A DNA stretch of 44,946 nucleotides from a virus, in IMG/VR virus record IMGVR_UViG_3300017528_000245, positions 1 to 44,946 of that record; one strand, given 5' to 3'. This document shows, piece after piece, positions 5,930 to 37,088 of the stretch. Position numbers and translations under genes: made by a program. Every line of letters starts with the position of its first letter. Position 1 is the stretch's first letter. The notes below the pieces were generated by a model. That model ran no database searches and was not told the origin of the DNA. It saw only the letters and a program-made list of their open reading frames with translations.

Positions 5930-6207
5930 AAAAACTCCTAACTTTAGCTCTATTGTTCATTTACGCCGGATGCGCTTCCATGCAGACCGCGCAGGATTGG
6001 CTCAATGATCCTAAGAATCAGGCGCTAATCCAACAGATCGCCACTACAGCCATAACTGTCATTGGTATGCTTGGAGCAAGGGAGGGCGCAAATACCCAGG
6101 CCACCACGGTCGGCGCATTAAGCGCCAAATATCCCAATGTTCCTGCTGGCGCTCTGCGCCAGATCGCAGCCCATCCCCAGACTTATGCCAAAACCGCTCA
6201 ACATTAA
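5926..6207 (+). CDS. Lipoprotein, 93 aa
   Basis: A classic type II signal peptide is present: MKKLL, a hydrophobic core, and lipobox YAGC with the acylated Cys at about residue 16. The mature protein has a hydrophobic patch (about residues 38-50) and a polar tail. It would sit in the inner or outer membrane of a diderm host. Next to holin-like genes, an outer-membrane spanin subunit is a possibility, but the mature part is not Pro-rich like typical o-spanins. Function not assigned. Confidence 0.65.
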   Translation: MKKLLTLALLFIYAGCASMQTAQDWLNDPKNQALIQQIATTAITVIGMLGAREGANTQATTVGALSAKYPNVPAGALRQIAAHPQTYAKTAQH

Positions 6208-6970
6208 GTGGTACGGGTGGAAGCCCGATTTACCAGATCGGCGTGATCGCCTTCGCGTCGCTCGCCCGAGGGTGGAACCTCTCCCCGATCTGGTTGATCT
6301 GCGCGATCACTTTCCTCCCTGCTATGATCAGGGTGATCTTGGCAGTTGCACCGCTCAGTCCATCGCTGGGCTCTTAGAGTATGCCCAACTTAAACAGCCG
6401 GGAGGCGGTGAAATTTTCACCCCTTCCCGACTCTTTATCTATTATGGCGAGCGGCTAATGGAAGGCACCGTGATGGAGGATTCCGGCGCTCAGATTCGGA
6501 GCGGGATCAAAGTCGTGGCCGAGGACGGCGCTCCACCAGAGGAAATGTGGCCCTACGTGATCGGCAAATTTAGCCACAAGCCGACGAAAAAGTCCTATCG
6601 CGAGGCCAAACGACATCAGGCCATCACTTACGAGCGGGTCTGCCAGCGGATCGAGGACATTCGCGGTTGCCTCGCTGACGGCTTCCCCTTCGCTTTCGGC
6701 TTCAGCGTTTATGATGGATTTGAAGGCGACGAGATAGCCAGAACTGGCGTCCTCGCCTATCCAAAGTCAGATGAACGGATGTTGGGTGGTCATGCCGTAG
6801 TCGGATGTGGTTACGACCATAACAAGCAAGTCGTCTTTGTTCGCAATTCGTGGGGTAGCGACTGGGGATCGAATGGCTACTTCACCATGCCGTATGAGTA
6901 CCTGCTCGACTCGAATCTGGCTGATGATCTGTGGTCAATCCGGTTAATTGAGGAAGTAGGTGTCACATGA
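6185..6970 (+). CDS. Papain-like (C1 family) cysteine peptidase, 261 aa
   Basis: The start at 6185 is chosen because it overlaps the lipoprotein gene by only 23 bp and gives the usual N-terminus ('YGWKPDLPDRRD') of bacterial C1-like peptidases. A complete catalytic set is visible: oxyanion Gln49 and Cys55 in 'DQGDLGSCTA', His203 in 'GGHAVVGCGYD', Asn221 in 'RNSWGSDWG'. There is no signal peptide, so it acts in the cytoplasm unless released by holins or packaged. Phage examples are known but their substrates are mostly undefined; here the setting between membrane proteins and an envelope-type barrel protein suggests host envelope breakdown or maturation of exported phage proteins. Confidence 0.85.
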   Translation: MPKPLNIKWYGWKPDLPDRRDRLRVARPRVEPLPDLVDLRDHFPPCYDQGDLGSCTAQSIAGLLEYAQLKQPGGGEIFTPSRLFIYYGERLMEGTVMEDSGAQIRSGIKVVAEDGAPPEEMWPYVIGKFSHKPTKKSYREAKRHQAITYERVCQRIEDIRGCLADGFPFAFGFSVYDGFEGDEIARTGVLAYPKSDERMLGGHAVVGCGYDHNKQVVFVRNSWGSDWGSNGYFTMPYEYLLDSNLADDLWSIRLIEEVGVT

Positions 6971-7500
6971 GTCTTAAACCAGCCCGCTACAAAAAACACG
7001 TTCCATTGCAGCGCCGGATGTCATGGCGACATAGCCGCTTCATGGACTTCTCCAGAAAAGGTGGTCCGCAGGAGATCATCCTTGGAGACAAAGGTTTTTA
7101 TTTCCACGCCGTCGTCAGCGGAGCTGATCTCGTTGTTCGAGGCGTTATAGCTACCTGGTTCGGAACTTCTCTGGACAAGCAGGACAACGGCGAAACCGCC
7201 AGCGGGGTCAATACTATCAAGACTCCCGATGTAGTGGGTTGTGCGCTGCCTATGCACGGCTTCGGCCTCGCTGCTACCGAGGGTTCACCGGTCCCGCGCA
7301 TCCCGTGGTTTACCAAGATAAGAGTCGCCACGCCCAACGCCGAACCGATCGACGTTCCGCTCATTGATTTAGGTCCAGCCCGTTACACCAACCACGGAAT
7401 AGACCTAACCCCCGTCGCCTTCAAGAAACTGGGCGGCGACTTAACCAAAGGAATCCTGTCAGTCGATTATCGCATCCTCGGAGGAGCGCACTACCTATGA
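6967..7500 (+). CDS. RlpA-like double-psi beta-barrel protein, 177 aa
   Basis: Residues about 60-170 show the double-psi barrel pattern: 'TWFGTSLDKQDNGETASGVNT', a 'VGCALPM' strand, 'WFTKIRV', and the 'LIDLGPAR...IDLTPVAFKKLG' strand-helix at the end. RlpA and related barrels cleave or bind peptidoglycan. No signal peptide is present, so access to the wall would need holin action. It is coupled by ATGA to the peptidase gene. No lysozyme or amidase is visible in the window, so this is one of two wall-hydrolase candidates. Catalytic activity is not proven by the sequence. Confidence 0.65.
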   Translation: MSLKPARYKKHVPLQRRMSWRHSRFMDFSRKGGPQEIILGDKGFYFHAVVSGADLVVRGVIATWFGTSLDKQDNGETASGVNTIKTPDVVGCALPMHGFGLAATEGSPVPRIPWFTKIRVATPNAEPIDVPLIDLGPARYTNHGIDLTPVAFKKLGGDLTKGILSVDYRILGGAHYL

Positions 7501-7877
7501 AAAAACTAATTCTAATCCTAATGCTGGCGCTCGCGCCATGCTTGGCTTATCCCCAGGGTGGACCGAATCAAACGATTCATTCCGCTGCCCTCGAAGCCTC
7601 TCACGTTCTTAAAACTGGCCCTGGCACCCTCATATCTCTGATCGGTTACAACAGCGGAGCGGCCCAGTTCATTCAGGTTCACAACATAGCCAGCGTGCCG
7701 AACGAGGGAGATGTCCCGACTTACACATTTGCGGTTGGCGCAGCTCAGAATTTCTCCCTAGATGTTCCCATAAGCGGAGCCCGCTTCTCAGCAGGGATCA
7801 CCGTTTGCAATAGCTCTACCGTGGACACCAAAACGATAGGCGCGGCTAACATATTCTTTACTGCGGTGGTGCAATAA
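7497..7877 (+). CDS. Secreted small beta-sandwich-like protein, 126 aa
   Basis: A Sec signal peptide is present (MKKLILILMLALAPCLA, residues 1-17). The mature part has a motif set I recognise from phage adhesin accessory proteins: 'VLKTGPGTLISLIGYNSGAAQFIQVHN' in the middle and 'GITVCNSSTVDTKTIGAA' near the end. These are usually short virion or tail-associated beta proteins. The start is ATGA-coupled to the preceding gene. Possession of a signal peptide on such a protein is unusual. Confidence 0.65.
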   Translation: MKKLILILMLALAPCLAYPQGGPNQTIHSAALEASHVLKTGPGTLISLIGYNSGAAQFIQVHNIASVPNEGDVPTYTFAVGAAQNFSLDVPISGARFSAGITVCNSSTVDTKTIGAANIFFTAVVQ

Positions 7878-7879
7878 AA

Positions 7880-9523
7880 ATGAAAAAGTTACTCCTCCCA
7901 CTCCTTCTTGCGGCCCATTCCGCTTTTGCTGGCTTGATCCTTTCTCCCGTGACCGCTGGCGGGGGTGGGGGCGACGCGCTTACTACCAATCCCCTCTCAC
8001 AGTTCGCGTCCACGACTTCGGCCCAACTCGCAGGAGTTATCAGCAATGAAACTGGCAGCGGTTCCTTAGTATTCGCTACCAGTCCGACCTTTGTTACCCC
8101 AATTCTCGGGACACCCGCTTCGGGCAATGCCTCCAACCTGACGGCGTTAAATGCAACCCAGCTCACAACTGGCACCGTCCCGACAGCAAGGCTGGGAACG
8201 GGAACGGCAGATAACGCCCATTTTCTCCGTGGCGATAATACTTGGCAGACTATTCCAGGCGGTGGTGACGCTCTTACCTCCGGCACGCTGGCCCAATTTG
8301 CTGCTACTACTTCAGCCGAGCTGGCTGGGGTTATCAGCAACGAAACCGGCACTGGCGCGTTAGTCTTTGCCACCAGTCCCACCTTGGTAACACCCATATT
8401 GGGAACCCCCACCAGTGGGACGTTAACCAATGCTACGGGGTTGCCGATTAGCACTGGGGTTTCCGGCCTTGGAACTGGAGTCGCCACATTTCTCGGAACG
8501 CCATCGAGCGCGAACCTTGTCGCTGCTCTTACCGATGAAACTGGAACCGGCGCGGCGGTATTTGCCACTTCTCCTGCTCTTGTTACACCAAACCTTGGTA
8601 CGCCTTCCGCTGCTACTCTTACCAACGCTACCGGCTTGCCCGTTGCAACCGGAATTAGTGGCTTGGGAACTGGGGTCGCAACTTTCCTAGCCACGCCATC
8701 GAGCGCCGATTTGGCTGCGGCTCTGACCGATGAAACAGGGACAGGAGCAGCGGTTTTTGCCACTAGCCCGACACTAGTGACTCCCATTTTAGGTACTCCC
8801 ACCAGTGGAACTCTTACGAACTGCACCGGCCTGCCTGTCTCCGGCATCGCGGCTTCCACCTCAACCGCTCTTGGTGTCGGCTCCATTGAATTAGGGGCAG
8901 CGAGCGACACCACTTTAAGTCGTGCCAGTGCCGGAGTCTTGGCTGTGGAAGGGGTCAACGTCTTACTAAATGGCGGCGCATTGGGAACGCCATCGAGCGC
9001 GACTCTGACTAATGCCACCGGACTTCCCGTTTCTGGAATAACGGCATCTACTTCTACTGCTCTGGGGGTTGGATCAATCGAGCTAGGACACGCCACTGAT
9101 ACCAGCATCGCGCGGGTATCCGCTGGTAAAATTTCGGTCGAAGGCGTCAATGTCCCGACTGTTTCCAGCACTGACACCTTGACTAACAAAGCAATCACTC
9201 CGCGAATCACAACGATTGCATCCAATGCCACCTGGAGCCCGAGCGCCGACACTGACGATATTTACGAGATCACTGCCCAGGCGGTTGATGCTACGACTAT
9301 TTCCAATCCATCTGGGACGCCTGTAAACGGACAAAAGTTACTGATCCGGGTGACTGGCACGGCAGCTCGTGGTCTGACTTGGAGTGGAAGCAAATGGAGA
9401 GCTTCGAGCGATCTGGCGCTTCCCACGACCACAACCACAACCAAGACAATGTATCTGCTCTTCGTCTATAACACCGCGGGAACGACAACTTGGGATTTGA
9501 TCGCGAAGTTGGATAATTTTTAA
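7880..9523 (+). CDS. Repeat-rich tail-fibre-like protein with signal peptide, 547 aa
   Basis: The N-terminus is a Sec signal peptide (MKKLLLPLLLAAHSAFAG) followed by a Gly-rich stretch. Residues about 35-420 consist of phage-fibre repeats of the type 'LGTPTSGTLTNATGLP', 'SNETGTGALVFATSPTLVTP' and 'LGVGSIELG', found in many phage side-tail-fibre proteins. The C-terminal 120 residues form a distinct beta domain ending in 'WDLIAKLDNF', a common fibre-tip type. It probably trimerises. The signal peptide would route it across the inner membrane if functional. Confidence 0.7.
   Translation: MKKLLLPLLLAAHSAFAGLILSPVTAGGGGGDALTTNPLSQFASTTSAQLAGVISNETGSGSLVFATSPTFVTPILGTPASGNASNLTALNATQLTTGTVPTARLGTGTADNAHFLRGDNTWQTIPGGGDALTSGTLAQFAATTSAELAGVISNETGTGALVFATSPTLVTPILGTPTSGTLTNATGLPISTGVSGLGTGVATFLGTPSSANLVAALTDETGTGAAVFATSPALVTPNLGTPSAATLTNATGLPVATGISGLGTGVATFLATPSSADLAAALTDETGTGAAVFATSPTLVTPILGTPTSGTLTNCTGLPVSGIAASTSTALGVGSIELGAASDTTLSRASAGVLAVEGVNVLLNGGALGTPSSATLTNATGLPVSGITASTSTALGVGSIELGHATDTSIARVSAGKISVEGVNVPTVSSTDTLTNKAITPRITTIASNATWSPSADTDDIYEITAQAVDATTISNPSGTPVNGQKLLIRVTGTAARGLTWSGSKWRASSDLALPTTTTTTKTMYLLFVYNTAGTTTWDLIAKLDNF
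8399..9050 (+). repeat. Four in-frame repeats of about 195 bp inside the fibre gene
   Basis: The segment encoding 'LGTP.S.TLTN.TGLP' begins near 8399, 8595, 8792 and 8980, giving a period near 195 bp (65 residues). Copies differ at synonymous positions, so the duplication is not recent or has been diversified. Such arrays change fibre length by recombination. Confidence 0.6.
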
Positions 9524-11022
9524 TGATTAGGTCTTGCTATTTGCTTGCAGTCCTCCTCGCTTTCTTCCTGACGGCGAGCGCGGAAGCCGCGATCACCGTC
9601 ACGGCGCGAGGCACAACAGCAAATAACGCCAGTTCAAGCACCACATTTGTCATCAGCCCAACCAGCAACATCGCGGCTGGTTCGACCGGTGTTCTGTGTT
9701 TGGCCAGCGATAATGCTGCTGGGAGCAACGCCAGCAATGTACCCGGCTCTTTAACTGATTCATTGGGCAATACTTGGCTACGGTTGAGTAACGCTATCAA
9801 TTCCGTTGGTGCTAATAGCGGCTCTGAGATTACAGGCTACTACGCTTATCTTCCTACTGGCCTCTCCACGTCGGACACGATCACGATTACTTTCACCAAT
9901 GCTGTCCAAGCGAAAGTGGCTGCCTTCTGGGAGTTAGCTCCAGGAAGCGGCAGTAATCGCGTTATAGCCGATTCATTCACTCGGCAGTCTAGTACCGGCA
10001 CTTCGCAGACTGCCCCGTCTATTACCTCGAATGGTAACGTCTCAATAGGACACGTCATTGTCGGAATGATGGCGGCTGAAAGTCCCGATACCTGGGGCGA
10101 CGACGCCGATACGACTAATGGCACCTGGTCAGCTTCGCAGCATTCTGGGGTGGGCGCGGGGGCAGCCGCCATGTCGCTCACCACCCAGTATAAAATTGAA
10201 ACAACGGCTGCCTCTCCGCAGACTTATAACACAACTCTGACCATCGCTGACGCTGCCTGGGCTATCGCCTGCTTTTCAGAAGTGGACGCGCGAGTGCGTG
10301 ATATTGGAGCTAAGGGAGCTTCGGATAGTTCAAACATTATCACAGTGCAGGCCAATTTAGCGACAGGCTCGATGGGAGTCTTGGTCGTGGCGGCTGACAA
10401 CGCTGGGACAAATGGCTCCGCTGCCAACCTTCCGGCTGGGCCGATTACAGATTCAGTCGGTAACACTTGGACGCAACGTCAGACCAGCATCTATGATCCA
10501 GGAGCGGCAAGCGCCGGGGTAGAGTTAGCGATCTACACAGCCCCGATTACGGTCACAATGGTAGCGGGTAGCTCGACCATCACTCTCAGCTACGTAAACG
10601 CCATTCTCAACAAAGCCTGGGCGCTATGGGAGTTTGCGCCCCCTAGCGGTGGCACCATCGCTTATGCGGCCAACGGAACATCGGCCGGCAGCGCGTCCGC
10701 CAGCCCGACCGTGACTACTAGTAGCATTGCCAATGGGGATATTGTGATCGGCCTGGGTGGGGAAGAAAATACCGGGGGAGTGGGTGATGGATGGGTAGGT
10801 GACTCTGATACTAGCAATGGCTCCTGGTCTTTTGCGGCTCACATTGGATTTAACAATGGTGGTATGGGACTTGTCACCCAGGCGAAAACCGTCACGGCAG
10901 CGGGGACTCAGACGTTTAACCCAACAGAAGGCGCAGGGGGTACGCCTGATACGATGGTGTCCTGGATTGAATTAGCTGTCACATCAAACGCAAATACTAC
11001 GAACGGATTTTTCCAATGGTAA
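9523..11022 (+). CDS. Secreted tandem-domain protein, 499 aa
   Basis: A signal peptide (MIRSCYLLAVLLAFFLTASAEAA, 1-23) precedes two homologous domains, about residues 24-250 and 255-490. Shared landmarks are 'DSLGNTW'/'DSVGNTW', 'NAVQAKVAAFWELAPGSG'/'NAILNKAWALWEFAPPSG', and 'DTTNGTWSASQHSG'/'DTSNGSWSFAAHIG'. The domain is beta-rich and resembles adhesin-type modules. The start is TAATG-coupled to the fibre gene. Probably a surface-binding protein or fibre component; ligand unknown. Confidence 0.65.
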   Translation: MIRSCYLLAVLLAFFLTASAEAAITVTARGTTANNASSSTTFVISPTSNIAAGSTGVLCLASDNAAGSNASNVPGSLTDSLGNTWLRLSNAINSVGANSGSEITGYYAYLPTGLSTSDTITITFTNAVQAKVAAFWELAPGSGSNRVIADSFTRQSSTGTSQTAPSITSNGNVSIGHVIVGMMAAESPDTWGDDADTTNGTWSASQHSGVGAGAAAMSLTTQYKIETTAASPQTYNTTLTIADAAWAIACFSEVDARVRDIGAKGASDSSNIITVQANLATGSMGVLVVAADNAGTNGSAANLPAGPITDSVGNTWTQRQTSIYDPGAASAGVELAIYTAPITVTMVAGSSTITLSYVNAILNKAWALWEFAPPSGGTIAYAANGTSAGSASASPTVTTSSIANGDIVIGLGGEENTGGVGDGWVGDSDTSNGSWSFAAHIGFNNGGMGLVTQAKTVTAAGTQTFNPTEGAGGTPDTMVSWIELAVTSNANTTNGFFQW

Positions 11023-11693
11023 TGAAAAGAACACTAGCGGTCGCGCTCCTAAGTCTGGTTCTAAACCACATTTATGCTCAAGACATCTCCAAGGGAGTTA
11101 CCTTTACGGACGGGATGACCGTCCATGCCTCCGACCTTAATACCGCCATAGATAACGCCACCATTTTGTCCACCTTCTATTCTGGCAAAGGTGCTGGAAC
11201 CCCGCTCACCACCGATTCGCTCCTCTTCCATCAAGCGTCCACTTCGACTCTTAAGTCGGTCAGTCTTGCTAATTTAATGACGGCGGGGAATGCGGTCAAT
11301 ACCAGTACCGTCCGTGCCGCCAATACTGTTCTGGCTGGTCCGACGAGTGGTTCTTCTGCTGCTCCGACCTTCCGCCTTATCTCGGCGGCTGATACCGCCA
11401 TTGCTACCAATACGGCAGTCAGCAGCACCATTGACTGGTCTAGTGCTCGCACTTTCTTCCGCACCCTCACCGCTAACACGACCTATTCTTTTACCAATCT
11501 CAAAGATGGCGAAACCGTGACGGTAGCAGTAAGACAGGCTGCCTTTGGCGGGCCTTATACTGCGGCTTTCACTGGGGTGGCTTGGAAGGGTAGCGTCGCG
11601 CCAACTCAAACTACCACGGCGAACAAGGTCGATCTTTACACTTTTATTGATTTTGGTGGCACGATTTTCGGAAGTGCTTCGCAGAGCTATTAA
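11022..11693 (+). CDS. Secreted fibre-like protein, 223 aa
   Basis: The ATG at 11022 shares a base with the previous stop (TAATG), the same coupling as the gene before, so it is preferred over the ATG at 11016. A signal peptide (MKRTLAVALLSLVLNHIYA) is followed by 'GMTVHASDLNTAIDNAT', a phage-tail style helix, fibre-repeat-like text ('VLAGPTSGSSAAPTFRLIS') and a beta C-terminus. It reads as a short fibre or fibre tip. Function inferred. Confidence 0.6.
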   Translation: MKRTLAVALLSLVLNHIYAQDISKGVTFTDGMTVHASDLNTAIDNATILSTFYSGKGAGTPLTTDSLLFHQASTSTLKSVSLANLMTAGNAVNTSTVRAANTVLAGPTSGSSAAPTFRLISAADTAIATNTAVSSTIDWSSARTFFRTLTANTTYSFTNLKDGETVTVAVRQAAFGGPYTAAFTGVAWKGSVAPTQTTTANKVDLYTFIDFGGTIFGSASQSY

Positions 11694-11694
11694 A

Positions 11695-12111
11695 ATGACT
11701 TTCATGCTCTCCATATTTCTTGCACAGGTGGGACTTCCCTTCTCAATGTTTACCGGAGGTGCCGCTCCTACCCCAACTCCTTCTGGCACGCCCACCCCTA
11801 CTCCATTGCCGGGAGGCCAGGTTGCAACCCCAGTCATTTCTCCTTCAAGCGGCGATCAACCAATTAGCGTTGCTCTTACCTGTGCGACCGCAGGCGCTAC
11901 CATTTTTTACACCGTATCGAATACTCCAGGCACCGCGCCAATCCACAGTGGATCGACTCCGCAGGGTGGCACGTTAGTTTATGCCAGTTCGTTCGCTGTT
12001 TCTGGCAATGCGGGCAAAACCGTTAAAGCAGTCGGTTACAAAGCTGGCTCACCTGATTCAGCGGTCGCGACAGCGGAGTACAACGGTCAAGCAGGAGGCG
12101 GAGGACAATAA
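11695..12111 (+). CDS. Chitobiase-C-terminal-like domain protein with PT linker, 138 aa
   Basis: The ATG at 11695 directly follows the previous stop. The hydrophobic N-terminus (about residues 1-20) may be a signal or anchor. A Pro-Thr linker (about 25-40) leads into one domain (about 45-130) with the 'ATPVISPSSGDQ...VALTCATAGATIFYTV' start and 'KTVKAVGYKAGSPDSAVATAEY' end of the CHB_HEX_C_1 / Fn3-like family, often found on secreted carbohydrate-active enzymes. Likely a carbohydrate-binding or spacer module. Its position just before the connector gene is curious. Confidence 0.65.
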   Translation: MTFMLSIFLAQVGLPFSMFTGGAAPTPTPSGTPTPTPLPGGQVATPVISPSSGDQPISVALTCATAGATIFYTVSNTPGTAPIHSGSTPQGGTLVYASSFAVSGNAGKTVKAVGYKAGSPDSAVATAEYNGQAGGGGQ

Positions 12112-13691
12112 TGGACTTGGGCGGTTACAGTTCAATTATCTGCAAGAAAGTCGGCACCACCGACTCGGATTCTCAAGCTACCTGCAAGGGTTTCATCCAG
12201 AATCGTTACCAGTGGATTTATTACCGCTTTGACTGGCGTGATGGACGCAGGCGAGACAGCATTTTTTCTACTGCTGGCAGTGATAGTGTTGCTCTGCCCA
12301 GCGGAGTCGATCGCGTTATCTCCATCCGCTACGGCGATCATTTCCTCGATCCGGTGGATGACACCTTCTTTGTCGAGACTGATCCGGGTATCTTCGAGCG
12401 TAACGGCATCCCACAGTACTATCAGGAGTACACCGAGGACGACGCAACTAAGCGAATCCGGCTTTATCCGATCCCAGCAGTGGTAGGTTCCATGTTCGTA
12501 GTTGGAAAGAAGGCTTTGCCAGCCTTGGTTAATGATTCTGACATCCCGATCTTGCGAGGGATTGATCAGGTCATTATCGCCTATGCCGAGGCCGACATGC
12601 TGGAATACCACCGGCAATACGGGAAGGCCCAGCAGAAATTCCAAGAAGCAGAGAAGCTGTTTACTGACGCAGTAGCTCTGGAACAGCAGCAGACCAACGT
12701 CCCGCGCAGAGCGAAGAACCTGACGGTCGCGGGAGATAGCTTGGCGGAAATGACAGATGCGGTCTGTGCGCGGATTGGCCAATGGACACCAGACGTTGGC
12801 ATCATGGTCAAAGAGTTCATTCGTCGTGCCTACATTCAGGCTTATGACGCTTATTTATGGCCGGAAAGTCTGGTGATCGCGCGGGTGGACTCCGATGGCG
12901 AGCAAGTCATCCTGCCGTGGTACTTCGGAGCTGTTATTCAGTGTCGCGCTGATACCAAGGGTAACACTCTCGGGCCGGTCGATCTCTCCACTTACTTCGC
13001 CATTACGCCTACCATCTTCGAGCAGATGAGCGGGTGGCCGGTCGCTTACAGCATCCTGACCCCAGTAGCCGTGTCGCGGCTCCCTCCCATTCAGGAACGG
13101 CTGGCTTTCATGAGCAGCGATGCCAGTGACAACACCCCAATCATGGTACGCGGAGAAGGTGGTGGAGACATCATGATTGAGTCGGTTCCTCTTAATGGAA
13201 CGAGTTTGGTTTACACCGGCTATACCTACTCGACTCCTCTGACGATAGCCAAGCAGCTTACCGCTGGTGATGTTTCCATCGAGGGAGCATCCAGTGGGGC
13301 CGATCTTGGCATGCTGCGATCCTACGAGCGGGAGCGTAAACGGATGCGCCTATGGATTCAGCCATCTCAGGATACCGCTCACCACTGCTTGGTTTTAGGC
13401 AAACGGATCATGCGCCCGCTGGTGCAGGACGAGGACACTCCGGGCCTGCGTAATATAGCCAATTACCTTATTCACATGGCGACTTCGGAATCATATTCCA
13501 AGCTCGGCAACACCCAGGGAGCGGTGGATTGCAAGGCCAAGGCCGATGCTTCCCTCCAAGCTCTGATTGATTTGGAAGTCCGCCAGAACAGCACTGGGAC
13601 TCGGGTTATTCCGTGGGTTTCAGCTCCGTGGAGCGCACTGGAGGACGATTACTTCACCAACTGGCTACATGACAAGGCAGACTTCGTATGA
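12111..13691 (+). CDS. Internally duplicated head-tail connector-like protein, 526 aa
   Basis: The two halves (about residues 1-200 and 210-505) are homologous. Both show 'PVD..F....P.IFE..G.P..Y' (about 78-103 and again 285-315), then 'RIRLYPIP...FVVGKKALPALVNDSD' against 'RMRLWIQPSQ...LVLGKRIMRPLVQDED', then a helix with 'YAEADMLEYHRQYGKAQQKFQEAEKL' against 'MATSESYSKLGNTQGAVDCKAKADAS'. Each half resembles the adaptor / tail-accessory protein that binds below the portal (P22 gp4-type role). No signal peptide, unlike flanking genes. A fused duplicate would halve ring copy number or add a layer; inference. Confidence 0.65.
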   Translation: MDLGGYSSIICKKVGTTDSDSQATCKGFIQNRYQWIYYRFDWRDGRRRDSIFSTAGSDSVALPSGVDRVISIRYGDHFLDPVDDTFFVETDPGIFERNGIPQYYQEYTEDDATKRIRLYPIPAVVGSMFVVGKKALPALVNDSDIPILRGIDQVIIAYAEADMLEYHRQYGKAQQKFQEAEKLFTDAVALEQQQTNVPRRAKNLTVAGDSLAEMTDAVCARIGQWTPDVGIMVKEFIRRAYIQAYDAYLWPESLVIARVDSDGEQVILPWYFGAVIQCRADTKGNTLGPVDLSTYFAITPTIFEQMSGWPVAYSILTPVAVSRLPPIQERLAFMSSDASDNTPIMVRGEGGGDIMIESVPLNGTSLVYTGYTYSTPLTIAKQLTAGDVSIEGASSGADLGMLRSYERERKRMRLWIQPSQDTAHHCLVLGKRIMRPLVQDEDTPGLRNIANYLIHMATSESYSKLGNTQGAVDCKAKADASLQALIDLEVRQNSTGTRVIPWVSAPWSALEDDYFTNWLHDKADFV

Positions 13692-13969
13692 GCACTCCTA
13701 TCCTTGACTGGTCACAATTATCCCCAACCTCAGACAGCGTTCGCATTACCCGGTTCGACATCACTGATCGGACAACTCTTGCGGCTGCCAGCACTAGCGG
13801 CCTCAATAACGGTTCGGTTTTTGACATCATTACTGGCAGCGGGAACTCGCGGGTAGCGGCTGAAGTCGAATTGCAGGCCGGAGCAGCCGATGTCACCGAC
13901 GATTCCCAAATCCAACCCTCAGATGACTTGAGCCGCCACTGGCAAGTCGTAGCAGGACTTATCCCCTAA
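13688..13969 (+). CDS. Hypothetical protein, 93 aa
   Basis: ATGA-coupled to the connector gene. The product is small, polar and Ser/Thr/Asp-rich with no membrane segment and no Cys. It reads as a beta protein ('SVRITRFDITDRTTL', 'SRVAAEVELQAGAADV'). Perhaps a small tail or virion component; no family recognised. Confidence 0.6.
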   Translation: MSTPILDWSQLSPTSDSVRITRFDITDRTTLAAASTSGLNNGSVFDIITGSGNSRVAAEVELQAGAADVTDDSQIQPSDDLSRHWQVVAGLIP

Positions 13970-13970
13970 A

Positions 13971-16900
13971 ATGCGCAAAACTTTACTTACACTTGTCTTG
14001 TCTGGACTGAGCGTGGGTTTTTCAACGCTTTACGCAGTCGAGACTGTCACGGTGAATAGCGTTTCCCGCAACGTCATCAACACGGGCATCATCAACTTCG
14101 CTCCTGCCCAGCTTAAAGTAAACGGAATCAGTGTTATTGGCGGAGGTGGTGGTGATGGTGGTGGAGGCGTAAATTCGATCACCCTATCATTCCCAGGTAT
14201 CTATGCCGCGCCACTGAGCTTCGTTGATGACGGGGCTGCAAACTGGTCGGCAACCGCAGTTTTTAGCAACCAGGCACCCTTGACCTTCTTTGGCAATGGC
14301 ACCTCTGGAACCGATGTGCCGACTTTCATGAGTGCGGATACGGCAAGGGTGGCGCTGGCAATAAATTTTGTCGATAACACCAGCGATGCTAACAAACCTC
14401 TCTCTACTGCTGCTGCTGCCGCCAACACTGCCCTTCAGGCTTCGATCACGACTAACACCGACGACATCACCACGCTTAACACAGAGTTTTCGGCCCTGAC
14501 ACTAAACACCATTGCCGCTCCGACTGAAGACCTGACGCTTTCTGGTTTCAAGATCACTAATCTCGGTGATCCTACAACGGGTACAGATGCAGCCAACAAA
14601 AACTATGTAGATGCGGCAGCCAATGTTGGGCCGCCCCACGCAGCGGTTGCCGCAGCTTCGACGGGGAACCTGACTTTAAGCGGGGAACAGACCATTGATG
14701 GCGTGGCTACCAGCGCCAGCCGAGTGCTGGTTAAGGATCAGACTACAGGAAGCCAGAATGGCATCTATGTCACCGCTGCTGGGGCATGGACACGGGCAAC
14801 AGACGCCGACACCGGCACTGAAGTTTCGGGAATCGTGTTCGTTTCAGGAGGCACAACTCAGATTTCGACGAGCTGGGGAGTGATAACGCCGCAGCCGATC
14901 ACCATAAACACTACTGCCATTGCTTACACCCTGACTGGAACGGGCGGCACCACTTACACCGCTGGCACTGGGCTCACTCTTACTGGCGGCAATCAGTTCA
15001 AGCTGGCTAATATGGCGGCGCGAACGGTGAAAGGGAATAACACCGGGAGCACGGCAACTCCAGGTGACATTTCCGCTACCATAGTCGGCCTTAACTTTCT
15101 GGCCGTTCCGACTCTAAACGCACTTAGCTTTCCAACGATCAATGCCGACAACACCGTAAGTTCGAGAACAGCTTCCCAATTCAGAGGCGACATCGGTGCA
15201 GGGACGGTGACGAGCGTTTCGACAATTCAGAATAACTCGACTGATTTGCTCTCAATTTCTACAGCCACCGGAACCAGCACTCCAGCCATCACGATTGATA
15301 AAAACAGTGTCGCGGCTTTGAGTTTCTTCGGCAATTCCTCGGGTAGCACCGCGGTGCCTACCTTCATGACTGCATCGACCGCGCGTACGACCCTCGGAGG
15401 CACCACTGTTGGCTCGAATGTGTTCACCCTGACGAATCCAAGCGCGATTACTTTCCCACGCTTTAATGCTGACAACTCAGTCAGCGCACTATCAGCCAGT
15501 GCCTTTCTGACGGCGGTGGGAGCGTCCGCCATTGAGTCACAGCTTAATCTTAATAATACGGGCAGCACTACCGCCCCCTCGACATGGGTTACAGGAGCCA
15601 CGGCAGCATTTGAGACAGAACTTCTCTCCAACAACCGATATACCTTTCTTCCGCCGTCATCTTCTTACGCTCCTGGCAAGCGAATCACTTACACCGACGC
15701 GTTTACAGTAGGCAGCGTTGGCCGTTATTTTCGACCCGCCACCGGCTCAGGCGATGCCATCAACAATTCCGTAGGGGATTATCGGCCGTTCGTTGCAGGA
15801 TCGCAGGGGCCATTTGGGCGCAAATCAATCGAGTTTGAGGCGGTCACTGCAAGCCTCGGAATCCTGAAGGGATGGCAGGTCGTTCCAAATGGCAATACTG
15901 TATTCTTTGTCGAAGATCAGACCGACGCCACGAAGCGATTTTCCTTTGACGCTGCCAATCAAACTCCGGGCCTTCCCGGCACGGTTACACCAGGCGGTGG
16001 CGACACCACTACGGTCCGACCGACCCGAATCCTTCCCGGTGCTTCAGATACTCCCGGCTGGGTTCAGGACATAAACGATGACTCGTCAGTAACAAAAGCG
16101 GTCATCACACTACCCGATGTTAATTTGTCACCAGATGTAATCGGCACTGCTGGGGTTGATATTTCAGAGAGCGGATGCGGCCCGAACTGTCACACTGTCC
16201 CAGTTAATACGGATACGGTCGTAATCGCAGGAAATCTGACTGGACCGCTAACTATAAAGTTACAGCCAGCATCGACCTATCCGGCCGGTTTCGAGGTTAA
16301 GATTATTGATTCTTCTGGGACGGTTTCATCCAGCAATCTCGTAACCATTACTTCTACCAACGGCACGGATACTTTTAGTGGAGGTGTTACTACAGTTGCC
16401 TTTGATGAAGCCAATGGACGGCGTTCGGTGATTTCAGACAATGTGAGTTTCTGGCAAATCCCCAGTGTTAGGGCAGCAACCCAGGGTTACACGCAGTTAA
16501 ATCCGATCAACGGAACAATCACAATTTCAGGCAACAGGAGTGCTGCGCGGAATAACGCTACTATCAATCTAGGGAACGGATCGAATGTACTAGCGGTCAA
16601 TTCGCCTTTTGATGGAATGGACATTGATTTGACCATAGTTCAGCCAAGTTCCGGGTCGCAGGGAACGCTATTTCTTCCCAGCGGCAGTCGGGTGGGTGCG
16701 AACGGCGTCGGCGTAGTAACGCTTTCGTCAGCCAACGGGGCGATTGATACCTTGCACGGTAGGTATAATGGAACGCTCGCGATATTTCTGTGGGATGCGC
16801 CGGTATTAAACTATACCTCTGGTACTGTTCCAGCCCAGCCTTCCAGCCCAAGCGCCACCACGGTCAACTCTGGTAAAATCACTCTGGGATGGACAGACAA

Positions 16901-18113
16901 TTCAACTAATGAAGCTGGCTTTGAGATTCAGCGTTGCTCCGGTACAGCTTGCGGAAATTATCAGCAAATTGCTACGACATTACCCAATGTCCTGACTTAT
17001 GCTGATACGGGCTTAGCCAGCGGGACGCTTTACCGATACCGGATTCGAGCTTTCAACTCGGCAGGAAGCTCAAATTTCACCGCCACCGTACAGGATACGA
17101 CTTCAGCAGGCGGGCCGACAGCGGAGCTATTTGAGGTTCACTTTAACGAAGGAACCCTCAACAATGCGGCAACGGTCGTTCCGGCAGGTGGCAACGCCGT
17201 CTTGAAATATGCTGATTGGACGACTTCCACCCAGACCGGCACGGGTGCAGCCTTTAACCCAGTTCAGGGCATGACCAGCTTCAACAATTCCAATGTAACC
17301 GCTGTCACTGGAGGCACTGCTGGAACGGGCACGACTTACAATTACAAAGTGCTGGGCTTTAAGAACGTCACTGGCTACCACAACTCCTATAACGGCGCAG
17401 CGGCAGTGGTGGTTAATGGAGCCACTCTCAGCTCGGGCAGTTACAACACGATTACCTGGTCCTCTGTCGGAGCGGATTACTATGCGGTTTATCGCACGCT
17501 AGGAGGCGCGACTCAGGGCAGGCTTTCCGGCACTGGCCCAGGATTCGCCTCTCTCACGATCAACGACACCGGATTAGTCACCACTGGAGCGACCCCAGGG
17601 GATATTACTACCAGCACTGATGGTCATACTGCCACGGCGGGCGCAAGCATCCCTTATACTGGGATACAAAGAATTAGCTGCTCATTCTGGATTAAGAGCA
17701 GTCTGTCGATTTCGCAGCAAACAATCGTGAATGGCGGAGGATGGACGATCAAGACACTCACCGGTACGACTAGGCTGCAAATTACGATGGACGGGGCTAC
17801 GGGGAGCTTGGTCGGTACTGTGCCAGCTACGGCCCTAAATGACAACGCATGGCATCTAGTAGTTGTGGAACTGGATAACTCTACCGCAGGAAATTCCACC
17901 GCTAACATCCAAGTTTACTATGACAATGTTAATGCACTGACGACTACTCTGACGACCCAAACCAGAACTGGGCCTACCAACTTCGCCGCAGGCGTTCCGA
18001 TTATAGGGGGCGTGGTCGCTGGACTCGACGATGTAAGGATTTACGACCACATGCTAACCACAACCCCAACAACTGGGGAAATAGCACTGCTCTACTCAGG
18101 AAATGCGCAATAA
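13971..18113 (+). CDS. Giant secreted fibre-like protein with FN3 and LamG-like domains, 1380 aa
   Basis: Order of parts: signal peptide (residues 1-22); Gly-rich hinge (about 51-63); long fibre region with phage tail hallmarks, including 'KITNLGDPTTGTDAANKNYVD' (about 193-213) and the 'RVLVKDQTTGSQNGIYV' module (about 252-330); more fibre repeats to about 560; a beta region to about 945; a fibronectin type III domain (about 953-1045, with 'ITLGWTDNSTNEAGFEI' and 'LYRYRIRAFNSAGSS'); and a concanavalin/LamG-like domain (about 1060-1375, with 'HLVVVELDNS' and 'GLDDVRIYDHML'). It is probably the main receptor-binding or adhesin protein. A signal peptide on a tail fibre is not standard. Confidence 0.7.
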   Translation: MRKTLLTLVLSGLSVGFSTLYAVETVTVNSVSRNVINTGIINFAPAQLKVNGISVIGGGGGDGGGGVNSITLSFPGIYAAPLSFVDDGAANWSATAVFSNQAPLTFFGNGTSGTDVPTFMSADTARVALAINFVDNTSDANKPLSTAAAAANTALQASITTNTDDITTLNTEFSALTLNTIAAPTEDLTLSGFKITNLGDPTTGTDAANKNYVDAAANVGPPHAAVAAASTGNLTLSGEQTIDGVATSASRVLVKDQTTGSQNGIYVTAAGAWTRATDADTGTEVSGIVFVSGGTTQISTSWGVITPQPITINTTAIAYTLTGTGGTTYTAGTGLTLTGGNQFKLANMAARTVKGNNTGSTATPGDISATIVGLNFLAVPTLNALSFPTINADNTVSSRTASQFRGDIGAGTVTSVSTIQNNSTDLLSISTATGTSTPAITIDKNSVAALSFFGNSSGSTAVPTFMTASTARTTLGGTTVGSNVFTLTNPSAITFPRFNADNSVSALSASAFLTAVGASAIESQLNLNNTGSTTAPSTWVTGATAAFETELLSNNRYTFLPPSSSYAPGKRITYTDAFTVGSVGRYFRPATGSGDAINNSVGDYRPFVAGSQGPFGRKSIEFEAVTASLGILKGWQVVPNGNTVFFVEDQTDATKRFSFDAANQTPGLPGTVTPGGGDTTTVRPTRILPGASDTPGWVQDINDDSSVTKAVITLPDVNLSPDVIGTAGVDISESGCGPNCHTVPVNTDTVVIAGNLTGPLTIKLQPASTYPAGFEVKIIDSSGTVSSSNLVTITSTNGTDTFSGGVTTVAFDEANGRRSVISDNVSFWQIPSVRAATQGYTQLNPINGTITISGNRSAARNNATINLGNGSNVLAVNSPFDGMDIDLTIVQPSSGSQGTLFLPSGSRVGANGVGVVTLSSANGAIDTLHGRYNGTLAIFLWDAPVLNYTSGTVPAQPSSPSATTVNSGKITLGWTDNSTNEAGFEIQRCSGTACGNYQQIATTLPNVLTYADTGLASGTLYRYRIRAFNSAGSSNFTATVQDTTSAGGPTAELFEVHFNEGTLNNAATVVPAGGNAVLKYADWTTSTQTGTGAAFNPVQGMTSFNNSNVTAVTGGTAGTGTTYNYKVLGFKNVTGYHNSYNGAAAVVVNGATLSSGSYNTITWSSVGADYYAVYRTLGGATQGRLSGTGPGFASLTINDTGLVTTGATPGDITTSTDGHTATAGASIPYTGIQRISCSFWIKSSLSISQQTIVNGGGWTIKTLTGTTRLQITMDGATGSLVGTVPATALNDNAWHLVVVELDNSTAGNSTANIQVYYDNVNALTTTLTTQTRTGPTNFAAGVPIIGGVVAGLDDVRIYDHMLTTTPTTGEIALLYSGNAQ

Positions 18114-21100
18114 ACTACTAGCTCTATTATTCGTTCTCATATCAGCATCAGCATGGGCCGCGTGCCCACATCCTTTGCCTCCTTTGCCTGATCCAGGATA
18201 CGGCACCTGTGTCGCCCAAAGTCCAGCATACGCCGATGTAAATCCACAGGTGCAACTGGCCGCTGACGGCGATCACGTAATGATACAGGCTGGCAGAGCG
18301 GTCTGGGGACCAACTGATGTTCTAAATATCACCCACGACATCCAGCTTATCGGTGCAGGAATGGATGAAGGCTCTGTCGTTCCACGCGACAATGTTGCTA
18401 CCATTATCGTTCCTGGTAGGCGCACCATTATCACTGCTAACTATGTCAATTCTGGCAAAGCAGCCCGCATTAGCGGAATAGTCTTTGATCTGGTAACTCT
18501 TCCAACTGGCAACAGTTTCTTAATTTATCTTAATGGAAGGTGTTACCGGCACCGAGTCAGTGGTAACATTGTAGGCGGAGTTAGATTGGATCATCTCCGC
18601 TGGATCAACTCCGGCGACAATGTTCCCAATAGCACTCATCCAATCTCAAACGGGACGCCGCAAGGACAAACCGGCCCCGCCGCATGGGGACTGCTCAACT
18701 GGACTCATGCCAGCAATGACGGCGCGAACAGTTATATCACTGGCTCCTTCGATCATAATTTCGTTGATTACATACCGGGCTCTGGTGGCTCGGAAATAAT
18801 GGATTTCGCTTGCTCCGGTTCGCCTGAAAGTGGCCTGTCTCCCAATGGCTACGGACAATATAATTGGAGCCTAGGTTACATCTTCGGGGGCAGTGACGAT
18901 GCCTCCGATTTAAGAACAATCTTCATTGAAGATAATATCGTTCATCGCAGTGCCCCGACTACTAGCACAGTAGGCGGCGGCGCTAACTTAGTCATACGAC
19001 ACAACACCACTTGGGGTTCCATCACGCAACACGGCACTGATACTGGCGGAAACATGGGGCCGGTTACAGTAGAGCTTTACAATAATTACACCGATTTAAC
19101 GCACAACAACGCGAACTGGGGATGCGCAAATACTCGCGGGGGAGCGTGGGTAGGATTTAACAATCGGTGGACTTTTAACTCTGGTGGCGGGCAGAACGAT
19201 ATTAGCATGGGGGTTTATCGCCCAGGGGGTTTCAACAGCGGTATGTTTGGGCCAGCGACGGGGAGAAACTTTTTCGACCTTAACGCTCGCGGTGCCACTA
19301 CCAACAACTTTGGTGGGCCTAGCATTAGTCCCCTTGCCGGGACGCACGGGACGCCGACCGACACTAGGATCGGCTGTGTTTATGCCGAGGGAACCGTGGC
19401 CGCGATCAGCGGAAACAATTACACTTTGACTGGACTAGATGGGACGATCGGAGCCGATGCCTGGAAACGCTTCACCATTGTCAACACTGACAGGGCCGCG
19501 CCGGAGGCTTGGGGCGAGCAACTCAATCCCGCCACTGGTGCTGTTCTCACTGGCCCGCAATCAAATTGTTCAGGATTAATAAACAGTAGCAGTAACGCCA
19601 ATCCATCTGTTGTTACGCTGACGAACAATCCGTCCCTGGTAGCCGGAACAACTCCGAGTCATTGGGAGATACGCAAGATCAATCAATTTTATTGTCACCC
19701 AGGGGCCGGTAGAATTGTTGACAGCTTTAGCAATGGGGGAAAAGTCACTCCCGACGGCCAAGGACACGTAGTCCCAAACAAGACCGCAAGTGACCCTAGC
19801 GGGGAGACTAGCGGTTACTCGCTTGTGACGGCAAACGGGGCTAATAAGAATAAGTATTTCCCGAGCCAGCCCGCCTTCGGAATTTGGCAATGGGACAACA
19901 AAGTCCGTAACACCACTGTAGGTAATCCGCCATTTTCGATCAGCGTAGTCAAAGAGGATAACAGCGCGGCAAAGAACTGTTACCCCGGACTCGTTCACGA
20001 TGCCAAGGCTCCCTATATCAACACTACTACCTTGGCAGGCGGGGCTTATCCCAACGCGCCAACGCCTGTCGCACCTACGACACTCGATGACTATAAACGG
20101 ATTGGAGCAGACTTTGAAGCGCCCAGTTGTGTTGCATCAGGTCTTTCGTGGGCGACCGGACCCGGAACTCAATGCAGCGAAACGACCGAGCGTGCCACTA
20201 CAGCCTACGGCGGCACTTATCCCAACGGCATTGTATCGGCAGCGCCGCTAGTCCCTCGTATCACTAGTCAGCCCACATGGACTACTGTAGTCAATCAGCC
20301 AATCAGTCCTAATTTCCAGGTTCAAACCAGAGATTTCACCGTCCCGCCTACTTTCACCCTAAGTCCCTCAACCCCCACATGGCCAAGTGGTGTATCAATG
20401 ACTGCTGGCCCAACTGGCGGGGGCGTTATCTCTGGCACGCCCACGGTCATAGGAGCGACCACAGTCCATATCTTAGCTTCCAACACTGTTCCAGAGTCAG
20501 CCCCCATACAGGACTTTACTTTGACAGTTACAGCTACACCTACGCCAACACCTACACCTACGCCAACGCCTACCCCAACCCCAACCCCAACACCTACACC
20601 TACACCTCCGCCACCGCAGGGAAGATTTGCGCTGGACAACGATGGCAACATTCACGACCGCGACGACATTAATTCTATTGGTTGGGAAATGGCGCTCTTC
20701 GGTAAAGCCGGAATGGTAAGTAGGGTGGTATGTATAACCTACAACAATCACTATTGGTCCACGGATAGTACGTGGGGCAACGACATGATCGCCAGCGTGG
20801 ACAGCGCCGCTCGTGATTGGGGTTACATCCCAGAAGGTCAACCGGGAAGCGTCATCCACAACTGCATGAACGGAAATACGCCTAATACTGCCGCAGCTAA
20901 CGCAGCCGTCTCTGCGCTCACAACCGCAATCAATGCGTCAACTGCGAGTAGTCCGTTGACGATTCTTGGGGGTGGACCTATGGAGATAATCGGGCGGGCG
21001 TTGAACGCATCTGCTCCTAGTGCCCGTCCATTCGTGACGATCGTCTCACACATGACGGGTACGGCCACTTTCAACGACGTGCACGCCTGTTCTGTCGGTG

Positions 21101-21537
21101 TGCCAAGTGAAGGGCTGGCGACGCCGTGCTACAACTTCAACGACCTAGGATCGGCAAACCTAGCATTAGGTGCTAATCCGATTCACATACCATTCCAAAC
21201 TAGTTTGAACAACGCCCTGGACGCAGATTTCACTTGGGCCACTCCGGCACAAACTAGTGATGTAAGATTGAATCATTTATACACACGGGGCAGCACCATC
21301 GCCTTTCCCAGTAACAATAAGATGGATTGTTCCGATAGCGGCATGTCTTACTACGCTATTACAGGAGATCAATCCGCTACTGCAGCAAAATACAAGACAT
21401 TCTTTGCTGCCCCTACCCCTACGCCGACGCCGACACCGACGCCGACGCCTACCCCGACACCGACTCCCACGCCGACTCCTACTCCTACTCCACCGGGAGT
21501 TACTCCAACTCCAGCCAGTATCCTAGTCCAACCATGA
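18103..21537 (+). CDS. Secreted multidomain protein: beta-helix, Ig-like, nucleoside-hydrolase-like, 1144 aa
   Basis: It overlaps the previous gene by 11 bp. Parts in order: signal peptide ([19 protein letters not shown]); right-handed beta-helix / pectin-lyase-like region (about 45-450); a Cys-containing segment (about 460-710); a putative Ig domain (about 717-805); a Pro-Thr linker (about 808-838); a domain (about 841-1098) that begins with '[12 protein letters not shown]', has '[14 protein letters not shown]' and 'VTIVSHM', and ends with '[15 protein letters not shown]'; and a second Pro-Thr linker. The Asp-rich start and Gly-rich core resemble the nucleoside-hydrolase-like fold. The beta-helix may depolymerise or bind polysaccharide. 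Enzyme activity is unproven. Confidence 0.65.
20527..20613 (+). repeat. Pro-Thr hexanucleotide microsatellite, copy 1
   Basis: Tandem ACN-CCN codons encode about 14 Thr-Pro units linking the Ig-like domain to the hydrolase-like domain. Codons alternate between CCA/CCT and ACA/ACC/ACG, so the repeat is imperfect at the DNA level. Slippage here would change linker length without breaking the frame as long as units are multiples of 3. Confidence 0.8.
21409..21495 (+). repeat. Pro-Thr hexanucleotide microsatellite, copy 2
   Basis: A second run of about 14 Pro-Thr units near the C-terminus of the same protein. It uses more CCG/ACG codons than copy 1, so the two runs are not a recent duplication of each other. 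The protein ends about 14 residues later. Confidence 0.8.
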
Positions 21538-22415
21538 AACCGTTGCTTATACTATTACTCAGCGTGTGCGCGGCAACCGCTGCACCAACTGTTACCGATC
21601 TGCTTTTAGTCAACGGGAACACAGGTCAGGCGCAACCGGCCAATGGCGGGACACTGCCAGAAGGAGTGCTGATGTACGTCCGCGCCAGAGTGAACAGCGA
21701 AACAATGAGTGTCACTTTCGTGACCATTCCGGGCAATACCGAGGTGCAACCTGTCAGCAATGGACAAGCCAGAACTTCTTCCGGTCAACGTTCGGCAGCG
21801 GGCACATATACAGTGACGGCAAAACCGTGGAGCAAATTTAATGCTACCGGAATCGCAGGAAGCGAAGTTCGAGGCACCTACACGATCACTGGAGCCACCC
21901 CAACACCTACCGTAAGTCCAACACCCATACCACCAACACCAACACCAACAGCAACGCCCAGCCCCACTCCAACTGTGCCGCCGAGTCCATCGCCTACCGC
22001 AAGTCCCACACCCACGCCTCCCACACCAACGCCATCAGCAACACCCACAGCAACGCCAACGCCGCAACCAACAGCCAGTCCTTCGCCAAGTCCATCCCCG
22101 AGTGTGGCCTATGTCACTATCACCGTCCAGTGGATCGCGACCAAGGGCGATCGCTATACCATTCTCTACGGCACGACCAACCCGCCTGACATACAGACCG
22201 ATGGCGGGATCGCCGTGCGCAATGGGGAAATGACGGTGACGATCTCCGGGCTATTGCCGAACACGACTTACTACTTCAGCGATATTGTGACTGATCCGAC
22301 TGGGGCCGAATCCGGCCCGCTTCCGCCGATCCAGTACGACACTAGTGCGAACCGCAATCAGCTTTTCAAGCTAGGAGCCTTCAACCTTCCTCGCAATGCC
22401 AGTTCTAAACATTGA
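21534..22415 (+). CDS. Secreted protein with long PT-rich linker and FN3-like domain, 293 aa
   Basis: ATGA-coupled start. Signal peptide ([16 protein letters not shown], 1-16); a beta domain (about 20-120); a Pro/Thr/Ser linker (about 122-197); and a C-terminal fibronectin-III-like domain (about 198-270, with '[20 protein letters not shown]' and '[16 protein letters not shown]'). The design is that of a secreted or surface-displayed bacterial protein, not a typical virion protein. Overlaps the nozzle gene by 20 bp. Confidence 0.65.
21897..22110 (+). repeat. Pro/Thr/Ser low-complexity coding repeat
   Basis: About 70 codons of irregular ACN-CCN and AGN-CCN units encode the linker of the preceding secreted protein. 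It is less regular than the two Pro-Thr runs upstream and includes Ala and Ser insertions. Confidence 0.7.
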
Positions 22416-24003
22416 ACAACTTGATGACGCGATTGTTTACGATGGCGTTGGCAGCTTCGTTGGCGGGCAAGTTAGTGGGACGCGGGCAAATCTGCTGTCC
22501 GAGAACGAGTCAGCGCAGTTGGTAAACTGCGATGTCACACGCACCGGAGAATTGCGGACACGGCGCGGCACGGCACGATTGGGGACGAGTGGCCCAGGAG
22601 CCCAAACTTTTATCCAAGGACTGGGCTACTACGAATCCCCTTCGGCTTCTTATCCGGTAGCGGCGGGAAACGATGGAAACTTTTACTATTTTAACGGAAC
22701 CATCTGGCAAGGACTAGGCGGCTACAGCTTCCCCAGTAGTCAGGTTAATAGGGTTCTGATGGTGATGGGAGCGCCCACGTCCAAGCTATACGCATTGGTT
22801 ACAGGGGAATCTGCTATTCATTACTGGAATGGAGCTACCTTTGTAGCTTTAGGAACAACGAGTCCGACAGGCCCAGGGCCGAACCCGCGTTGGATAGTAT
22901 GGCACACTGATCGGCTGGTCGCAGTAGGCGGACCAACTAAACCTGAGACTCTCTATTTCTCGCAATTCCTAGATGGAACGGTTTGGGACTGGGCTCTCTG
23001 GAGTCTGGATGTTTCCGGCGACGGAGTGCCGGTCACTGGGCTTGTCAGTTGGACTGATTTCAACCTGATCGTGATGAAACGGAACAGCCTCTGGGTAATC
23101 AACTGCAACCCGCAGTTGCAGATTCAAGACCCGAGCAATACCGTCGCAGGATTCGAGAAAAAACCAATTCACCCTGCCATCGGCTGTCTCGCCCCAGCCA
23201 CGGCATGTCAGGTCGGGGGCGATGTCTATATGCTGACGACCAGCGGAGTCAGAAGCGTCCAGCGCACTCTCGCGGCTGAGAGTCAAACGGACATCGGTGA
23301 TCCACTCAGCTATCCCATCCAAGACATAATTGATCGAATCAATCCTGCCGCTATTAACACGGCTAACGCTACCTTCTGGAATAATAGATATTTCTTAGCA
23401 CTTCCGCTGGACAGCGCAAGTCAGCCCAACTACATCGCGGTTTACAATGTCCTGACCAGCAGTTGGCATGGGTTGTGGGCAGGATGGACACCGACCTGCT
23501 GGTCAACGCGGACGGTCAACGGTGTGCCTCGGCTCATCTTTGGACAGACAGATGGATCGGTTGTGGAATGGCTGGATTATGTGTCAGTGGACAGTGAGGT
23601 GGACGCTACCTATCAGGACATCAACGCCACCGGAGTTCATAACATTCCGATTACGGTTTTGACCAAATCGTTTGATCACAAGGAGCCGGTCTGCAAGAAG
23701 CAGGGATTCAACTGTCAGTTCGAGTTCTTCAGATCATTGGCGGATGTCACTATTCAGATCATCCGTGACGGCGCCGATCCCGAAGCTTTTGTCACTTTTG
23801 CCACAGCTACAGATAGTCTTGTGTTGCCAGTTCCGTTGCCGTTTGTTTTACCTGCGGCAGGAGTAAGACGGCGCGGATTCGGCCTTCAACGGTTTGGCCC
23901 TTATCGCGAGATTCAGTACAAGCTGACTACCGCCAGTGGGAAGCTGGTGTTACGCAGCATCATCACTGGCGGTTTCATCAACACGGTGGACGTAGAGATA
24001 TGA
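22396..24003 (+). CDS. Tail nozzle / packaged-DNA stabilisation protein, gp10-like, 535 aa
   Basis: The protein has repeated short beta blades with '[13 protein letters not shown]', '[14 protein letters not shown]' and 'DRLVAVGG' type phrases (about residues 90-190), then '[21 protein letters not shown]' and '[16 protein letters not shown]' (about 212-305). This is the beta-propeller pattern of P22 gp10-like nozzle proteins that cap the adaptor ring and hold DNA in the head. N-terminal '[24 protein letters not shown]' also fits this family. No signal peptide, so it is a genuine virion component. No ribosome-binding site stands out; probably coupled to the overlapping upstream gene. Confidence 0.75.
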
Positions 24004-36926: not shown

Positions 36927-37088
36927 TCATTCAGGGGAGCGGTTGCGATTGGCCGCTCCCCTTCCTTTTACCGCCCGTTCCAGCACTGATTCCACCCAAT
37001 AGCGCCCAACAAGACTGTTCTTGCGACAGAAGGCCCGCACTTTTTTCAGCGTTTTCTTGCTGACCTGGATGGTGGTTAAATCTTTCAT
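36927..37088 (-). CDS. Ribbon-helix-helix-like small regulator, 53 aa
   Basis: ATGA-coupled to the VPESG-CTERM gene upstream. The sequence 'LTTIQVSKKTLKKVRAFCRKNSLVGRYWVESVLERAV' has one beta strand followed by two helices and a hydrophobic pattern, as in MetJ/Arc-type regulators; the strand residues alternate Thr-Ile-Gln-Val. It may bind DNA as a dimer to control the early operon. The basic tail (about 41-53) overlaps a strong hairpin. Confidence 0.6.
   Translation of the reverse strand: MKDLTTIQVSKKTLKKVRAFCRKNSLVGRYWVESVLERAVKGRGAANRNRSPE
36934..36961. other. Perfect 9-bp hairpin at end of the small regulator gene
   Basis: GGGGAGCGG pairs exactly with CCGCTCCCC around a 10-nt loop, inside the last codons of the 53-residue gene and just upstream of the annealing-protein gene. 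On the plus strand it is followed by TTCCTTTTA, a weak T-rich tail; on the minus strand it has none. It may reduce readthrough or stabilise the mRNA. Confidence 0.45.

Follow-up and report, generated by a model that had tools for sequence, protein, structure and literature searches.

Introduction

The cytoplasm is where tailed phages are taken to make and attach their fibres. Addition of the P22 tailspike to finished heads works in vitro, as a last step that can take place outside the cell. A signal peptide takes a protein across the inner membrane and is cleaved off by signal peptidase I. Virion proteins with cleavable signal peptides are known from filamentous phages, in the coat proteins pIII and pVIII. 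Among phage proteins that are known to be exported are endolysins, namely Lys44 of fOg44 and the SAR endolysins (PMC6116005), and ORF22 of P1312 is a single secreted phage protein (PMC4569894). In a metagenomic study the target proteins of phage DGRs had no signal peptides, which was counted as support for their phage origin (PMC6199706). For a block of fibre genes with signal peptides we found no published precedent in the open-access literature, only the single-gene parallels and the exported endolysins.

Here we describe such a block in a single IMG/VR virus record, 44,946 bases long (the window), from an uncultivated short-tailed phage with a podovirus-type virion module. The findings suggest that in some tailed phages the fibres that bind the host leave the cytoplasm and are not assembled inside it.

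Results

Signal peptides in the fibre block

Signal peptides were called by a rule that uses the charge of the n-region, the Kyte-Doolittle value of the h-region, the residues at -3 and -1 and a polar mature start. Of 8 known E. coli signal peptides it picked out 7. The fibre block lies in the podoviral virion module, between the capsid, adaptor and closure genes, and is listed here with its surroundings. Genes are named by their start positions, and the signal peptides given are those called by the rule unless stated otherwise.

Start of window: portal, C-terminal part
3095: major capsid protein (PHROG 1357, 6e-44)
7497-7877, plus strand: 126-aa protein of unknown family with Sec signal peptide MKKLILILMLALAPCLA followed by YPQGG
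7880-9523, plus strand: 547-aa repeat fibre with signal peptide MKKLLLPLLLAAHSAFA followed by GLILS (PHROG 6002, virion structural protein, 2e-22)
9523-11022, plus strand: 499-aa fibre-like protein with signal peptide MIRSCYLLAVLLAFFLTASA followed by EAAI
11022-11693, plus strand: fibre with signal peptide MKRTLAVALLSLVLNHIYA followed by QDISKG
11695-12111, plus strand: 138-aa protein with a hydrophobic, uncharged start, a weak or non-classical signal peptide not called by the rule
12111-13691, plus strand: core virion head-tail adaptor (SU10-type) without signal peptide (Pfam PF24175, 4e-13; 85-90% identical in relatives)
13688-13969, plus strand: conserved 93-aa protein without hydrophobic start
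13971-18113, plus strand: 1380-aa fibre or decoration protein with signal peptide MRKTLLTLVLSGLSVGFSTLYA followed by VET (PHROG 2647, 9e-33)
18103-21537, plus strand: 1144-aa protein with signal peptide and two (TP)n linkers
21534-22415, plus strand: 293-aa protein with signal peptide, linker and weak C-terminal fn3-like domain
22396-24003, plus strand: core head-closure or P22 gp10-like stabilization protein without signal peptide (PHROG structural matches; 76-77% identical in relatives)
24638: DNA-ejection-like protein

In the block the rule was positive for exactly 7497, 7880, 9523, 11022, 13971, 18103 and 21534, all of which have a basic n-region, a hydrophobic core of 8-12 residues, an AXA-type cleavage site and a polar mature start. 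These are the seven starts that an earlier sequence-only reading had called textbook Sec signals, and its eight open reading frames all exist as described. The start it had marked as weaker, that of 11695, is hydrophobic and lacks a basic n-region, and the virion genes that it had set apart as having no signal do differ in this way, 12111 being negative in the rule and 13688 and 22396 having no hydrophobic start. No lipobox, the mark of lipoprotein export, was seen in the window's block.

Among genes of at least 100 aa the rule was positive for 7 of 8 in the block versus 1 of 30 in the rest of the window, the sole exception being 37085, a secreted-looking accessory protein. As a background we used 240 IMG/VR viral loci drawn by two arbitrary 14-mers, in which 104 of 2117 open reading frames (4.9%; 59/1021 and 45/1096 for the two parts) were positive. 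When fibre-like proteins, defined by composition, are compared, 16 of 159 (10%) in these loci are positive versus all 6 in the window (Fisher p ~3e-6), where the 10% is only a rough rate since the sample includes near-duplicates and prophage flanks with cellular genes. With two related genomes (see below) counted in, the number is 17 of 20 (Fisher p ~4e-12, relatedness ignored). Shuffled versions of the same proteins passed the rule in 0.25-2.3% of trials. The premise of the earlier reading, that neighbouring genes differ systematically, is correct, and the pattern recurs in unrelated phages.

A need for disulphides was considered as a motive for export and rejected, since the proteins with signal peptides are not enriched in cysteine (6.6 per 1000 aa versus 7.6); they thus do not look adapted to an oxidising compartment, a point against the explanation favoured below.

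Matches to phage fibre, tailspike or decoration families in PHROGs were found for 7880, 11022 and 13971, and none for 7497, 18103 and 21534. For 7497 there was no match in Pfam or NCBIfam and the best in PHROGs had only E=0.28; 18103 has no phage homologue. The start of 11022 lies in a TAATG overlap with the upstream gene, and its signal peptide immediately precedes a conserved fibre N-terminus, SKGxTFTDGxTVxAxxLN. In 11695 a TP-rich linker is followed by an Fn3_assoc or chitobiase C-terminal domain (Pfam PF13287, 9.6e-9), and 13971 has a head-decoration-type domain, a weak fn3 domain (Pfam 2.6e-5, just below the cut-off) and a weak laminin-G-like domain. The last gene of the block, 21534, overlaps the downstream gene 22396. 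AlphaFold2 runs from three-sequence alignments gave no usable fold for 11016 (pLDDT 46) or 18103 (pLDDT 29). The C-terminus of 18103 reads ILVQP and those of its homologues in the two relatives IQVSP and IQVLP, in each case after a TP-rich or proline-rich stretch; this conserved motif is possibly an attachment or sorting tag.

Related phages

Two near relatives were found in IMG/VR, G001 (47,650 bp) and G002 (47,950 bp), in which the virion core is collinear with that of the window and 76-96% identical. No close relatives appeared among named phages searched with the adaptor 12111 and with 18103. The fibre-block genes of the relatives differ from those of the window in number, order and sequence, with 24-66% identity. 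Although they have diverged or been shuffled or replaced, each keeps a signal peptide or a similar hydrophobic start. The homologue of 9523 in G002 is near the opposite end of the block with its signal peptide kept, and the signal-like start of 13971 is retained in both relatives. The rule misses 3 of 20 proteins in the three genomes, the 11695 homologues G1_6620 and G2_5007 and a third, G2_7281, which begins with MIRKTLLTLVFCGLSVGFSTLYA, almost the same as the start of 13971. The core of 11695, FLAQ(V/L)GLPFSM, is conserved in the relatives, though it is not a classical signal peptide. The stretch of 11022 that varies most across the relatives is the hydrophobic part, with an identity of 0.32-0.55 versus 0.67-0.80 for the rest, and YAQD-SKG at the cleavage site is invariant.

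Outside the fibre block, 26577-30620 (plus strand) encodes 1347 aa with a DarB-like match (PHROG 10089, 9e-14) and corresponds to two separate genes in both relatives. The product of 6137-6970 (plus strand) matches the papain-family Peptidase_C1 (3e-13) and may be a protease-type lysis enzyme; around it is an apparent lysis cassette with the small membrane proteins 5144 and 5353 and the lipoprotein 5926.

Fibre homologues with and without the signal

A more distant phage, L022/L160, has the gene order fibre, adaptor, closure and ejection protein that is seen in the window (L021, L023 and L024 are alike). Its orthologue of 11022 starts MGLSKGHTFTDG, without a signal peptide, and the L022/L160 fibre start MGLSKGHTFTDGETVTAAKLNNLVDNATI aligns with the predicted mature N-terminus of 11022. 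Six named phage records contain homologues of 7880, 11022 and 13971, again without a signal peptide. Since the orthologue begins where the mature 11022 is predicted to begin, and the named-phage homologues do without the segment, the signal peptide is, judging from these starts, an add-on directly in front of an otherwise ordinary fibre N-terminus.

Fibres with signal peptides were also found in a second, unrelated podovirus with a P22-type coat (G009/G008), which turned up in arbitrary samples. They are encoded there after the coat gene and between the adaptor and closure genes. One of them, a G009 protein of 502 aa, reads MRKLALLLIFLMIFTLPAFCQTSVALMPIPRIQWFLPNGTPNAGG..., with the signal peptide directly preceding a canonical tailspike attachment domain; the homologous domain starts at Met1 in five named phages, including the PBR31 tail spike. 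When tailspike attachment domains were retrieved by homology, 1 of 80 had a signal peptide (L321/G012) and 79 had none. Further unrelated phages with such fibres are L030/G003, L050/G004 (partly with a lipobox) and L074/G005, as well as a siphophage-like record, L261/G010. The block at L050:2777-6292 (minus strand) mixes lipobox-like and signal peptide starts and has one neighbouring fibre-like gene with neither; this phage is unrelated to the window and has a baseplate-wedge (myophage-type) gene.

Accessory genes and host

At 37085-37732 (minus strand) the phage encodes a secreted-looking protein that ends in a VPESG C-terminal motif, a hydrophobic stretch and a basic tail. It scores 13.9 and 13.5 bits with the VPDSG- and PEP-CTERM models, below their cut-offs of 25 and 22. 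In the window 37085 occupies the region where the relatives carry secreted proteins with a DVUA0089-family domain (early region; L009:12189-12653, minus strand, and the equivalent G2_33087 in G002), which amounts to an exchange of exported accessory genes. This domain is common in Verrucomicrobia. Together with the VPESG motif of 37085 it gives a hint, and only a hint, that the phage may infect a verrucomicrobial host; an exosortase substrate encoded by a phage would, if real, be unusual. G001 further has a 341-aa protein with a signal peptide near its terminase gene (L010:446-1471, plus strand), which has no NCBIfam match and looks hydrolase-like. Scans of genome contigs with the terminase and the accessory genes confirmed no relatives, the accessory scan being from a single sequence and of shorter reach than an alignment, and plasmids and phages searched with the accessory protein gave no match.

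Discussion

The sequence evidence supports the description of these proteins as virion-type fibres plus a putatively cleavable Sec signal, and from it we strongly infer that the proteins of the fibre block are exported. The explanation that we favour, and which we hold to be somewhat better than an even bet, is that virion fibres or tailspikes leave the cytoplasm through Sec, lose their signal to signal peptidase and are attached, at or after lysis, to capsids built in the cytoplasm. The block would then be the host-interaction layer of a short-tailed phage, made up of tail fibres, tailspike-like proteins and decoration proteins, each produced as a Sec precursor. The host Sec translocon would export these precursors and signal peptidase I would remove the signal, so that late in infection mature fibres would gather at the cell surface or in the periplasm. 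The capsids, complete with portal, adaptor and closure protein, would be assembled in the cytoplasm. Lysis would mix the two compartments and let the fibres bind finished tails, a joining step that we only infer. Plausible benefits are that glycan-binding fibres would be held apart from cytoplasmic precursors, and that the host surface could be coated or trimmed by free fibres ahead of release.

The sequence-only reading had left open whether the proteins are exported or whether the hydrophobic starts anchor fibres in the virion, and the former fits better. Export is favoured by the canonical cleavage sites, by a segment that varies yet keeps its signal peptide character, and by homologues that lack it and start at the mature residue. 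The same points make it rather unlikely that the starts stay uncleaved, either as a virion anchor or trimeriser or as a SAR-like tether to the inner membrane until lysis. Small residues stand canonically at -3 and -1 with polar residues after them; the hydrophobic part is the most variable one in 11022, and it is missing from orthologous or homologous fibres. Signal-anchor-release sequences are used by some phage endolysins (PMC6116005), but these are weakly hydrophobic and have no cleavage site, whereas the starts seen here have a strong core and a cleavage-site motif. The start of 11695, with its conserved core and no basic n-region, suits an anchor better and could be an exception. Less likely still is that the signal peptides are incidental leftovers of recently captured host genes whose products now act as cytoplasmic fibres. 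The block is a fast-changing and shuffling part of the genome and its TP-rich linkers look host-like, but a residual signal peptide would still direct export, the signals are kept across divergence, and they are also present on native phage domains.

More weight, though still well short of an even chance, goes to export of proteins that are not part of the virion, such as secreted or surface-bound decoys, adhesins or matrix-acting enzymes that might serve superinfection exclusion or hold cells or virions together. An architecture of Fn3 and chitobiase C-terminal domains with TP linkers is typical of secreted proteins; 18103 has TP-rich linkers that resemble those of ordinary secreted proteins, and no phage homologue. 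The clade has other exported proteins outside the block (37085, G1_31189, G1_38446 and G2_33087), and P1312 ORF22 is a published single-gene parallel (PMC4569894). However, the genes are interleaved with those of the adaptor and the closure protein, there are matches to phage families of fibres or decoration proteins in 7880, 11022 and 13971, and in G009 and G012 the signal peptide precedes a tailspike attachment domain, where a decoy needs no virion-binding domain. Because of these fibre and decoration domains and the attachment domain of the second phage, a role as virion fibres is more plausible than one as decoys or adhesins only. The three proteins without a virion-family match, 7497, 18103 and 21534, may have a purely secreted role. 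Finally, the starts could be an artefact of gene calling, that is out-of-frame hydrophobic extensions or random signal-like starts. Some open reading frames have several possible starts and several gene starts lack an obvious Shine-Dalgarno sequence, but the starts sit at tight gene junctions and recur in three related genomes and an unrelated clade, and the window alone is significant in the Fisher test, so we consider this highly improbable.

Our estimate is slightly below even for the wider proposal that in several unrelated lineages of tailed phages the virion is finished outside the cytoplasm, with fibres and tailspikes that are exported by Sec, mature on the host surface or in the periplasm and meet the cytoplasmic capsid only at or after lysis. 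If true, such a recurrent habit would mean that virion morphogenesis has a second, extracytoplasmic step. It would also alter the way in which fibre genes are picked out in metagenomes, and it would bear on how the host surface changes before lysis.

Of the known systems, the podoviral tailspikes and fibres with P22-type attachment domains, for example in Xanthomonas phage PBR31, share their gene neighbourhood with the proteins described here and, in the case of G009, a homologous domain, and they are similar in size and composition. They differ in having the attachment domain at Met1 and in being assembled in the cytoplasm, whereas here a signal peptide stands before the predicted mature N-terminus. 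Lys44 of fOg44 and the SAR endolysins are likewise late phage proteins that cross the inner membrane by way of the host Sec system, but they are lysis enzymes and not a whole set of fibre and tailspike proteins. Lom of lambda, encoded near the tail genes, and ORF22 of P1312 are exported phage proteins as well, each a single accessory gene and not a block of fibre genes. Virions with pIII and pVIII are assembled at the membrane and extruded through it, whereas the phage in the window is a tailed one with coat, portal and lysis-like genes.
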